Assembly (NCBI RefSeq): GCF_900184685.1
Contig: NZ_FXXL01000006.1
Location: 62,001-126,000 of the forward strand
Source: Butyricimonas sp. Marseille-P3923
Lineage (GTDB): Bacteria; Bacteroidota; Bacteroidia; Bacteroidales; Marinifilaceae
Reading direction: 5' to 3'
Length of the DNA stretch: 64,000 bases
Shown: in pieces, positions 60,725-64,000 of the stretch
Numbering within the stretch: the stretch's first letter is position 1
How the letters are laid out: each line of letters begins with the position of its first letter
Made by a program: the position numbers and the translations under genes
The notes under the pieces: model-generated
Database searches by the model: none
What the model saw: only the letters and a program-made list of their open reading frames with translations
What the model was told of the DNA's origin: nothing

Positions 60725-61774
60725 TTGGTTCGTCTATTTAACACGGTTATGAGGATCATCACGATTGCGGCAATGATCGGCTTGCTGGGAAGCTATACTT
60801 CCCCGTATGTAAACCCGAACACGTTTTATCCCTCGTCACTACTGGGACTCGCTTACCATTACCTGTTAATAGCAAATATCATATTATTTCTTTATTGGCT
60901 CTTCCGGTGGAAGAAGATTGCCATTCTTTCTTTTTTAGTCATTGCTTCCGGGTACCCGTTTATCACAACTTACTATGCCTTAAACCCCAAAGTAGCACCG
61001 GACGCACCCCACGATCTTTCCATCTTGACTTACAACATCCGGCAAATGAACGCGAATAACTGGATGCAGGAAAAAGACGCACCAAAAAAAATCATGGATT
61101 ACATCAACAACAGCGATGCAGACATCGTGTGTATACAGGAATTTCCCAACCGGGACGCTTCCTTCCAGAAATTTCCGGAATACAAATACCGCTATCGCAA
61201 CAAGGATGTTGCCTTGATCTCCCGTTATCCTATCATCCATAAAGGAGTAATCAAATTCCCTCCCGGCAATGCCGCCGCTTGTATTTACGCGGACATCGAC
61301 GTGAAGGGTGACACCGTCCGGGTATACGCCATTCATTTGGAATCCTATCGCCTTGGCAACAAAGAAGAACAAATCTATAAAAACCTGACCAGCGGTAACA
61401 CGGAAAACGCCACGCAAGGCGTCAAAAAGATATCCTCACGCCTCGTTCACGCGAACCGCAATCGAGCCAACCAAGCCGTTGAAATCAAAGCCCACATGCA
61501 ACAATCCCCCTACCCCGTGATTATATGCGGCGACTTCAACGACACGCCCCTCTCCTATGCCTACCATACTTTATCCACCGGAATGACCGATAGCTTCAAC
61601 GAAAAAGGACGTGGCCTCGGGAACACTTACATCGGGGAATTCCCCTCGTTCCGTATCGACCACATCCTGCACACACCATCATTCAAAACAGTATCTTACA
61701 CTCGGGATACTGTCAGGTATTCAGACCATTACCCCGTGAAAACGAAACTAAAATATGCCCCTTCGCATAGATAA
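60725..61774 (+). CDS. Endonuclease/exonuclease/phosphatase (EEP) family membrane protein
   Basis: 349-aa protein with three N-terminal hydrophobic helices and an EEP (DNase I-like) domain from ~95: LSILTYNIRQMNANNW, VCIQEFPN, ICGDFNDTPLSYAYH, and the C-terminal RIDHIL with SDHYPV. All metal/catalytic motifs are intact. The start is TTG at 60725 or ATG at 60749. The last ~60 codons are duplicated at 63035-63218 beyond the ATPase gene. Its substrate could be a phosphoester, lipid or nucleic acid. Confidence 0.88.
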   Translation: MVRLFNTVMRIITIAAMIGLLGSYTSPYVNPNTFYPSSLLGLAYHYLLIANIILFLYWLFRWKKIAILSFLVIASGYPFITTYYALNPKVAPDAPHDLSILTYNIRQMNANNWMQEKDAPKKIMDYINNSDADIVCIQEFPNRDASFQKFPEYKYRYRNKDVALISRYPIIHKGVIKFPPGNAAACIYADIDVKGDTVRVYAIHLESYRLGNKEEQIYKNLTSGNTENATQGVKKISSRLVHANRNRANQAVEIKAHMQQSPYPVIICGDFNDTPLSYAYHTLSTGMTDSFNEKGRGLGNTYIGEFPSFRIDHILHTPSFKTVSYTRDTVRYSDHYPVKTKLKYAPSHR

Positions 61775-61824
61775 CAGGAAGAAATTATCGTGTAATAGAA
61801 CTATCATATATATAATATTTAACT

Positions 61825-61884
61825 AAATTCTGTGGTTGTAACCGCAAAATTCACATGAATTTTGCGGTTACAACCACAGAATTT
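61825..61884. repeat. Perfect 60-bp palindrome over the ATPase promoter
   Basis: Arms of 29 bp (61825-61853 and 61856-61884) with no mismatch, separated by two bases. The right arm contains the -33 TTTG box of the ATPase gene. The centre reads GCAAAATTCA-ca-TGAATTTTGC. Confidence 0.97.
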
Positions 61885-61894
61885 CATATATTTG
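61861..61894 (+). promoter_or_regulatory. Promoter of the DUF4143 ATPase gene
   Basis: TTTG at 61861-61864 and TATATTTG at 61887-61894, 22 bp apart. Transcription would start near 61901, which supports the ATG at 61912 (leader ~11 nt) and excludes the in-frame ATG at 61855 inside the palindrome. Confidence 0.7.
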
Positions 61895-61911
61895 TCCAAA
61901 AGAAAGTTTAT

Positions 61912-63033
61912 ATGATAAACAGGGAAATCTACAATTCAATACTCGCCGATTTTAAAAGAAAAAAAGTTATTGTACTTCTAGGTGCAAGACAAGTCGGAAA
62001 AACAACATTACTGGAAGGGCTATCTTCCAAAGAAAAGAAATGCTTATTCTTAAATTGTGACAACCTTGACGACAAGTTGTTGTTAGAGGAAAAAACATCG
62101 ACAGAACTCAAGTTATTGTTATCATCTTACGAGATCATTTTTATTGATGAAGCCCAAAGAGTAAAAAATATAGGTCTGACCATTAAAATGATCGGTGATT
62201 TAAAACTAGCCGGACAAGTGATTGTTACAGGTTCTTCTTCTCTTGATATGGCAAATGAAATAAACGAACCGGCTACAGGACGTATCATAGAATATCAACT
62301 ATTCCCATTCTCTTTATCCGAACTTGCAGCTCATACATCCGAAAGAGAAGAACAACGTTTATTGGAACAAAGAATGATTTACGGTCTTTATCCTGAAGTT
62401 ATTAACGAACCGACCGATGCTAAACGAACTCTAGTAACCCTTGCCAACAATTATCTCTACAAAGACCTTTTCACTTACAAGGGAATGAAGAAGCCTGACA
62501 TCTTGCAAAAATTAGTTAGGGCTTTAGCATTACAACTAGGTAGTGAAGTATCATATAACGAATTAAGTAATTTATTAGGAGTGGACAGGGAAACCGTGGA
62601 AAACTACATCAATCTCCTTGAAAAATGCTTTGTTGTCTTTAGACTGGATTCATTCAATCGTAACATTAGAAACGAAATAAAAAAAGGGAAGAAAGTATAT
62701 TTTTACGATAATGGAATCAGGAATGCTGTCATTTCTAATTTTGCACCATTGGAACTACGGAATGACGTGGGCGCACTTTGGGAAAATCTAATGGTATGCG
62801 AAAGAGTAAAACGTAATTCTTATTCCAAAAACTTTGCTACTCAATATTTTTGGCGTACCCATGACCAAAAAGAAATTGATCTAGTAGAAGATCAAGACGG
62901 AATACTAACAACCTTCGAATTTAAATGGAACACTAAAAGTAAAACCTCCATACCGAAAATCTTTGCAGAGACTTATCCCAACTCAATTTTTAAAGTTATA
63001 ACACCAGACAACTTTTGGGAATTTGTCAAATAA
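61912..63033 (+). CDS. AAA+ ATPase with DUF4143 domain and nuclease-like C-terminus
   Basis: 373-aa protein. Walker A GARQVGKTT (~24-32), Walker B EIIFIDEAQR, sensor VTGSSSLDM, a winged-helix-like DUF4143 region (VSYNELSNLLGVDRETVENY) and a C-terminal PD-(D/E)xK-like pattern (KEIDLVEDQDG...FEFKW). Proteins of this kind are abundant and highly variable in Bacteroidetes; their function is not established. Codon use is A/T-rich, unlike the EEP gene it follows. The stop codon is 1 bp from a second copy of the EEP 3' end, so the gene lies between two copies of that sequence. Confidence 0.92.
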   Translation: MINREIYNSILADFKRKKVIVLLGARQVGKTTLLEGLSSKEKKCLFLNCDNLDDKLLLEEKTSTELKLLLSSYEIIFIDEAQRVKNIGLTIKMIGDLKLAGQVIVTGSSSLDMANEINEPATGRIIEYQLFPFSLSELAAHTSEREEQRLLEQRMIYGLYPEVINEPTDAKRTLVTLANNYLYKDLFTYKGMKKPDILQKLVRALALQLGSEVSYNELSNLLGVDRETVENYINLLEKCFVVFRLDSFNRNIRNEIKKGKKVYFYDNGIRNAVISNFAPLELRNDVGALWENLMVCERVKRNSYSKNFATQYFWRTHDQKEIDLVEDQDGILTTFEFKWNTKSKTSIPKIFAETYPNSIFKVITPDNFWEFVK

Positions 63034-63034
63034 A

Positions 63035-63218
63035 CGGGATGACCGATAGCTTCAACGAAAAAGGACGTGGCCTCGGGAACACTTATATCGGGGAATTCCC
63101 CTCGTTCCGTATCGACCACATCCTGCACTCACCATTATTCAAAACAGTATCCTACACCCGGGATACGGTCAAGTATTCAGATCATTATCCAGTTCGAAGT
63201 GATCTGAAATTCAGATAA
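63035..63218 (+). pseudogene. Duplicated 3' fragment of the EEP-family gene
   Basis: Homologous to 61579-61774. Its reading frame encodes MTDSFNEKGRGLGNTYIGEF and continues to SDHYPV, then ends differently (RSDLKFR against KTKLKYAPSHR). By eye about ten substitutions occur over the first ~155 bp, mostly silent. It lacks the N-terminal three quarters of the gene, including the catalytic Asn/Glu region, so it cannot encode an active enzyme. Confidence 0.93.
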
Positions 63219-63231
63219 AGCACACTACTTT

Positions 63232-64000
63232 CTATAAACCTTCCATATATTGTTTTATCATCCGTTGCGTATATTGCATCTGCATTTGGTCAGAAATTCC
63301 GGCACTTACCACGAATGCCTGATTCAAACATTGCTTGGCTTTTTCCACGTTATTCGTATTCTGAAAACATTGAGCCAGTATAATCAAAAAGCGAGTATGC
63401 ATTTCCGCATCCATATCTTTCTTTTCCAGAGCCTTCGTGATCCAATCAATGGATTTCGTGTAAGCATTCTTCGACAACTGCCCGTTATAAGCCATTGACA
63501 AATCCTCTAACGCCTGCCCGTAATCTCCCGCCTCAACTTGATCACCTTTTCCGGCAAAATATTTATCCATATTCTCGAAGAACTTTGCTTCGTCATGCCG
63601 ATACAAATAATAAGTAGCGTCCGCTAACAACGTGATGGCATCCAACACGCTCAACGAACCGAATGAGATTTCGGAATACACCGGTTTCAAATCCTTGTTC
63701 ACCCGTTCCAGACGATCCTTGTAAGCCAAATCACCTTTCTTACATAACTGAACAATATACCCGTTATTCAAAGCGATCAAGTAACCCGCAACCTCTTTAT
63801 TTTTCGTCACTTGAACAAATTTGTCATAATTGGCGACAACAAAATCGAACACCTCATCCTCTTTAGAAGTCTGCGGGTGATATAACATCAATATCTGAAA
63901 GTCCTTCTCGTTAATCATGTTCCCCAACTTCTTGTTCTTCAAGTAAGCCGGGAAAAGACTCTCGATCCGGGTCGTCCACTTCTGCCGGTCATATTCCTCC
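63232..64000 (-). CDS. Unrecognised protein, C-terminal part (gene continues beyond the window)
   Basis: The frame is open on the minus strand from the right edge to the stop at 63232; the apparent TTG start at 63942 is not needed, because upstream codons (encoding DRQKWTTRIESLFPAYLKN) remain open. The visible part is helical, with TPR-like character (YTKSIDWITKALEKKDMDAE, FLIILAQCFQNTNNVEKAKQ). In Bacteroidales similar regions follow thioredoxin domains, so the missing N-terminus may hold one; this is a guess. No function assigned. Confidence 0.75.
   Translation of the reverse strand, partial: EEYDRQKWTTRIESLFPAYLKNKKLGNMINEKDFQILMLYHPQTSKEDEVFDFVVANYDKFVQVTKNKEVAGYLIALNNGYIVQLCKKGDLAYKDRLERVNKDLKPVYSEISFGSLSVLDAITLLADATYYLYRHDEAKFFENMDKYFAGKGDQVEAGDYGQALEDLSMAYNGQLSKNAYTKSIDWITKALEKKDMDAEMHTRFLIILAQCFQNTNNVEKAKQCLNQAFVVSAGISDQMQMQYTQRMIKQYMEGL

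Follow-up and report, generated by a model that had tools for sequence, protein, structure and literature searches.

At the 3' end of an EEP-family (endonuclease/exonuclease/phosphatase) gene of Butyricimonas sp. Marseille-P3923, a mobile single-gene cassette made up of a palindrome and an AAA_14-DUF4143 ATPase gene lies between two copies of the gene's end, and comparison with relatives identifies the copy behind the ATPase as the native EEP end and the tail of the intact gene as foreign-looking. Our best explanation, which we hold with moderate confidence and which is drawn from sequence comparison, is that one-sided homologous recombination coupled with illegitimate recombination brought in the cassette together with a replacement 3' end. 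The window, i.e., the whole stretch of DNA analysed, comprises 64,000 nucleotides (positions 62,001 to 126,000 of contig NZ_FXXL01000006.1), and all coordinates refer to it. The EEP gene occupies 60725..61774 on the forward strand (Pfam Exo_endo_phos, E 7.7e-23) and its ORF is open, in keeping with the original prediction of an intact gene, though its C-terminus, VKTKLKYAPSHR, is of the replacement type, with a tail unlike those of aligned relatives. The recurrence of about 180 bp of this gene end behind the ATPase, initially judged by eye, is real: the direct repeat 61579-61754 / 63035-63210 is 89% identical over 176 nt, ungapped, and a search inside the locus aligned copy 1 (61579..61737, forward strand, with a weak extension to 61754) to 63035-63193 at 93.1% over 159 nt (E 5e-65). 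The copies agree up to 61738 and then differ abruptly, the end peptides being KTKLKYAPSHR in the intact EEP ORF and VRSDLKFR in the second copy. From copy 1 to the palindrome run the divergent tail, the stop codon and an A/T-rich spacer (61739..61824, forward strand), in which identity to copy 2 collapses and which probably arrived together with the cassette. The palindrome (61825..61884) has fully complementary arms of 29 nt and is followed on the forward strand by a promoter-like TAnnTTTG (61887..61894) and by the ATPase gene (61912..63033, 373 aa). Copy 2 (63035..63218, forward strand), a native EEP 3'-end fragment that keeps its native stop, begins 2 nt past the ATPase stop. Beyond it, a convergent TPR-like gene (63232..63999, reverse strand, to the window end; an ORF with weak Pfam hits below the cut-off) is the native right neighbour, as in the relatives L023 and L025 it immediately follows the lone EEP end.

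A search for an empty site in relatives had been suggested, and all five same-genus genomes compared (G006-G010) have one EEP end and no match to the ATPase at the site. Both window copies align to the single EEP end of each of these genomes and are roughly equidistant from each of them. The tail of copy 2 resembles those of the relatives and that of copy 1 does not, and the stop codon and first UTR bases of copy 2 are those of the nearest relative, L022. The earlier proposal that the insert supplied a replacement end is thus borne out: on this sequence comparison, the intact EEP gene has a replacement-like tail and the fragment behind the ATPase appears to be the native end. A donor genome was looked for and none was found, so the foreign copy was identified from the tails and by comparison with relatives whose DNA is 70-83% identical. 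In another genome, G048, the EEP orthologue (L041 2193-3233) is split by an ORF that by our reading resembles an IS1595-type transposase.

The likely start of the ATPase is the ATG at 61912, because relatives begin there with MIxR; the alternative ATG at 61855 falls within the palindrome. The protein matched AAA_14 (E 1.6e-28) and DUF4143 (E 4.5e-40) in Pfam and belongs to the PADLOC family PDC-S01 (PDLC04789, E 4.2e-160, residues 1-372). The A/T-richness first noticed in its codons is evident from a G+C content of 34.8%, compared with 46.7% for the EEP gene and 46.5% for the window; that of the cassette, about 1.25 kb in length, is 34.1%. The ATPase is the sole ORF of more than 60 aa in the cassette, which also holds three antisense ORFs of 51-60 aa that lay outside the Pfam scan, and, in agreement with the first reading of the locus, that scan found no integrase, recombinase or transposase domain in the ATPase. 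A nuclease-like C-terminus had also been proposed, and it is upheld as a prediction: among 53 sequences the Walker motifs are conserved, E291, D323 and E336 are invariant and K338 is present in at least 90%, and in an AlphaFold2 model (mean pLDDT 90) the order of helices and strands in the C-terminal domain fits the PD-(D/E)XK alpha-beta fold. This domain therewith appears PD-(D/E)XK-like, the motif residues being assigned by our own reading, and is a putative nuclease. Foldseek placed 2qen, a Walker ATPase of Pyrococcus, first (TM about 0.5), with IstB, MuB and TnsC lower, as AAA+ folds, and no PD-(D/E)XK nuclease was noticed by name in the list of 50 fold matches. The genome of the window has nine DUF4143 genes, and we consider the ATPase to be probably a nuclease-linked candidate defence protein, with a putative role in defence.

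The palindrome proved to be part of a recurrent feature of these genes. Its arm matches nowhere else in the window with up to three mismatches allowed, 0/100 shuffles yielded a match to it, and the rest of the genome has one three-mismatch match to the 21-nt palindrome core. It corresponds to one central dyad unit between half units of the array type found in relatives. Arrays were scored as tandem repeats of period 25-45 within 250 bp upstream, with a score of at least 15; the window copy scored 29 as a palindrome and 11 as a tandem array and is not counted among them. Arrays precede 102/223 ATPases compared with 32/883 other genes (77/158 versus 26/677 in set 1; 25/65 versus 6/206 in the independent set 2), and their period is 32 or 33 in 75 of the 77 arrays of set 1 and 22 of the 25 of set 2. 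By our reading, some of the control matches are divergent neighbours sharing the array of an ATPase, and one is another AAA_14-type ATPase. Palindromes with a score of at least 12 lie upstream of 55/158 ATPases and 30/677 other genes. The array units are dyads, with a mean of 10.0 complementary pairs out of 13 compared with 7.9 after shuffling (77 arrays, both at their best positions), and the letters of the dyad unit vary among arrays. Neighbouring units of ~30 bp are 2-3 bp apart (own reading), which is unlike the unique spacers of a CRISPR. Among eight other DUF4143 loci of the same genome, L012, L013, L015 and L017 have arrays of period 31-33 with scores of at least 15, L010 falls just under the cut, at L009 there is a palindrome, at L014 neither feature, and L016 was not scorable. 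A search for solo arrays found none in 393 genomes across the order, a result without weight, as the pattern was too strict and misses, for example, the known arrays of G269 and G416. A TAnnTTTG box, which we take to be the Bacteroidetes -7 consensus, lies within 80 bp upstream of 129/158 ATPases compared with 146/681 control genes. We take the palindrome or array to be, in all likelihood, a dyad site beside the promoter that serves as an operator or is bound by the DNA-binding region of the ATPase itself.

To place the locus among its kind, 159 distinct ATPases were collected (set 1), followed by 66 more (set 2). The original prediction that the ATPase is a mobile or selfish module held in part: the gene moves horizontally, and as to agency it is probably cargo. 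Its close relatives are patchy: those of other genera (G023, G014 twice, G044 and G011) are 67-77% identical in amino acids, in genomes where EEP is 48-57% identical or, in G023, has no match; the ATPase of same-genus G006 is 74% identical in amino acids and lies at another place. The cassette is delimited by related pairs that occupy different sites and are 77-97% identical in DNA: in the 45 of 56 pairs listed, the shared sequence usually begins at about -95..-139 and breaks off within a few nt of the stop codon, the left limit spanning 0 to -223; the right limit is +25 to +31 in L111/L114, L254/L260 and L088/L192 and in a few pairs lies clearly before the stop. In a tree of the ATPases, in which 36 of the 73 rows are without a family label, Bacteroidaceae rows are scattered (10 changes compared with a shuffled mean of 9.6). 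Across all 14 family labels 20 changes were counted compared with 25.1 after shuffling, a value as low in 0/200 shuffles; since the labels are more clustered than shuffles, transfer is not free. Treponema rows fall among Bacteroidales, L087 among them being a short contig of a metagenome bin. The Bacteroides uniformis plasmid CP054202, typed as mobilizable, carries a close relative of the ATPase whose frame is broken (L161), and homology of the upstream backbone to other plasmids ends near the left edge of the cassette; the Bacteroides plasmids compared for empty sites have mosaic backbones. The gap between the MraY-like and BirA genes holds a DUF4143 cassette in the sister species G007-G009, of which G006 shares the right flank, and by our reading a different AAA ATPase gene in the genome of the window (L309 1-1075, C1), which suggests that this gap is an insertion hotspot. 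Adjacent pairs of DUF4143-type ATPases, tandem or convergent, occur at L231, L221, L233, L207 and L267.

Whether other DUF4143 copies are bounded by duplicated flanks had been put forward as a check, and some of them are. In a strict test, which required a repeat of at least 40 bp and at least 80% identity between the 600 bp upstream and the 300 bp downstream and excluded flanks that were too short, 31/219 ATPases had flank repeats compared with 7/801 other genes (set 1, 23/156 versus 5/601; set 2, 8/63 versus 2/200), and 188 of the 219 ATPases had none. An earlier, looser test gave 37/157 ATPases and 17/340 control genes. By our names, five of the seven positive controls are RAYT-like, IS200-type, KilA-N, Fic and AbiEii-like genes. 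Fourteen repeats were dropped, by reading, as probably not target duplications: array copies at L092, L108, L146, L228, L239, L342, L346 and L197|5 (at the first seven loci the ATPase has such copies to its left and to its right), tandem ATPases at L231, L221 (two) and L332, and dispersed repeats at L219 and L251. The cleaned count is 17/219 compared with 7/801 (p 2e-7), with the cleaning uneven in that controls and Fic-domain genes are uncleaned, and with L082, a terminator that may be dispersed, retained. At these 17 loci the duplication is 40 to 159 bp long and of no fixed length. Many of the flank-repeat sites are non-coding. Coding examples include L212 (93 bp, 98%), L246 (150 bp, a gene end plus one array unit), L197 (by our naming a LeuA-like gene end, with a terminator and an array copy, the gene-end fragment lying farther out than the 600 bp that the strict test covers), L134 (ClpP-like, own reading), L201, L222 and L365. 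L365 is a further locus with a clear empty site: 13 of the 14 relatives' loci read are without the cassette, and in 11 of these 13 the flanks join over a single copy of 106-122 bp, the right side being not contiguously aligned in L392 and L401; L389 has the cassette and no second copy beside it. At L212 a single gene end was found in 10/10 relatives' loci read, with the right flank not syntenic, and comparison of L246 with G131 covers the left flank, its right side being likewise not syntenic. In the sister genomes L116 and L197, one has a second ATPase followed by a copy of the LeuA-like gene end, and in the other this second gene breaks off a few codons after its start and the 36-bp copy is identical to the native end, which hints at gene conversion.

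The kind of divergence between the copies bears on whether the gene ends were duplicated locally. In five loci with the fragment in frame and uninterrupted, the gene end and fragment differ by 30 synonymous and 6 nonsynonymous changes (window, 8:3; L212, 2:0; L246, 2:1; L197, 9:0; L365, 9:2), compared with the 36% synonymous predicted for a local duplication with a drifting fragment (p 8e-9). These five were picked after inspection, and the safer figure is that of all seven counted coding loci, 35:14 (p 6e-7), with L134 left out; gene conversion between copies, suggested in L116, could blur the synonymous counts. As the divergence is mostly synonymous, the copies are like alleles and not like the products of local duplication; at L365 both nonsynonymous changes are on the fragment, as expected after loss of function. 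A local tandem duplication or an ordinary long target-site duplication, followed by drift of the useless fragment, is simple, accounts for the variable length and agrees with the decayed fragments at L201 (0:4) and L222 (5:4), which are as plain duplication would give and also count against our best explanation. The synonymous-rich divergence and the sudden change of tail that the window shows at 61738 make it very unlikely, and the tandem duplication followed by insertion that had been considered at the outset is disfavoured on the same codon counts.

In the recombination that we favour, the cassette would enter on donor DNA also bearing the donor's own EEP 3' end. On one side, homologous recombination inside EEP would leave the intact gene with a donor-type tail; on the other, illegitimate joining just past the ATPase stop, ~180 bp inside the recipient's EEP end, would leave the recipient's own end as a native fragment. 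The duplication would then be a scar of homology-facilitated illegitimate recombination and not the work of a cassette-borne integrase. At the junctions (31 loci) the match extends by a further 0-2 bp and inspection by eye showed no motif, no preferred target gene was found among the diverse neighbours, and the neighbouring gene points at the cassette at 94/141 loci on the left and 67/141 on the right. The right junction lies 2 nt past the ATPase stop in the window, 4 in L212, 9 in L246, 10 in L134 and L351 and 12 in L118, and within 50 nt in 19/31 loci, a crowding tighter than blind end-joining suggests and thus a point against our explanation. Site-specific, Campbell-type insertion of a circular form into the 3' ends of genes, with a recombinase in trans, would produce a replacement 3' end and native fragment as at icd, and the same arrangement does occur at several genes; with no common core at the junctions, diverse neighbours, many non-coding sites and no recombinase domain found in the cassette, we regard it as very unlikely. 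A site-specific 3'-end element was also set aside as first choice, given that no recombinase was found, there is no core and a like scar occurs at Fic-domain genes.

The Fic-domain genes, chosen as a control after the ATPase result and unfiltered for solitary genes or the SoFic system (60 loci fetched, 58 scored), had flank repeats, uncleaned, in 9/58 (L435, L436, L448, L454, L456, L465, L468, L475 and L482) and arrays in 6/58. The scar is therefore common to other single genes, the array being what is enriched at the ATPase, and scarring may be general to single-gene cassettes. Given this rate, the lack of a core motif, the diverse neighbours and the many ATPases without a repeat, the ATPase is probably cargo and not the agent, and the same evidence speaks against the original idea that it has its own system for integrating at gene 3' ends. 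An autonomous selfish element, in which the ATPase-nuclease moves its own cassette, the palindromic arrays are its ends, targets are cut and a one-sided, homing-like repair copies the cassette to leave long, variable target duplications, would account for the cassette limits at the array edge and stop codon, the crowding of right junctions at the stop, the conserved nuclease-motif and Walker residues, the confident model and the number of DUF4143 genes in this genome. It would also explain the two-sided array copies, which look like element ends in several loci and count against our best explanation. We nevertheless judge it unlikely, because Fic-domain genes, with few arrays, are duplicated equally often, there is neither a fixed duplication length nor a target motif, and the ATPase is without a known transposase domain. 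The further speculation that the PDC-S01/DUF4143 gene is itself selfish, the nuclease-ATPase spreading an array-ATPase cassette, with the 32-bp dyad array as its recognition end, through cuts in target DNA whose one-sided repair copies the cassette in, seems quite unlikely; if true, the defence status assigned to PDC-S01 by embedding would be partly an artefact of mobility.

The window ATPase belongs to the same protein family as PDC-S01, known here as a candidate from sequence. In the accessible parts of the sources, this family is described as very common (PMC12988326, PMC13356809), and one of them ranks it fourth in frequency among the defences of all prokaryotes and characterises it as an ATPase fused to a PD-(D/E)XK domain, with most such defence candidates awaiting experimental validation (PMC12988326). 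That account, in the same accessible parts, is without the palindromic array, the cassette limits or the flank scars, and no description of an array or scar at DUF4143/PDC-S01 was found in the accessible parts of the open-licence literature, in which DUF4143 came up once, in one paper, and AAA_14 led to unrelated work. The recurrent dyad array before PDC-S01 offers a direct way to approach how it is regulated or what DNA it targets, and the scars record the entry of single-gene cassettes, Fic-domain genes included, into genomes, while warning that defence inferred from mobility can be circular. Unlike a transposon or IS, the cassette has no known transposase domain and no target duplication of fixed length. 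REP/RAYT single-gene elements consist of one gene with palindromic repeats nearby, a likeness extended by the flank-repeated RAYT-like control; the ATPase differs from them in having no Y1/HUH domain and in that its dyad units adjoin as a tandem array before the gene. Prophage e14 and phage 21 at icd leave an intact gene with a replacement 3' end and a native fragment beyond the insert, an arrangement also found here, whereas the window cassette has many targets, no att core and no integrase that we could find in it. Homology-facilitated illegitimate recombination has been described for naturally transformable bacteria, and the scar in the window, as read from its sequence alone, would resemble it in pairing a homologous side with an illegitimate one of little microhomology and in duplicating part of the anchor.
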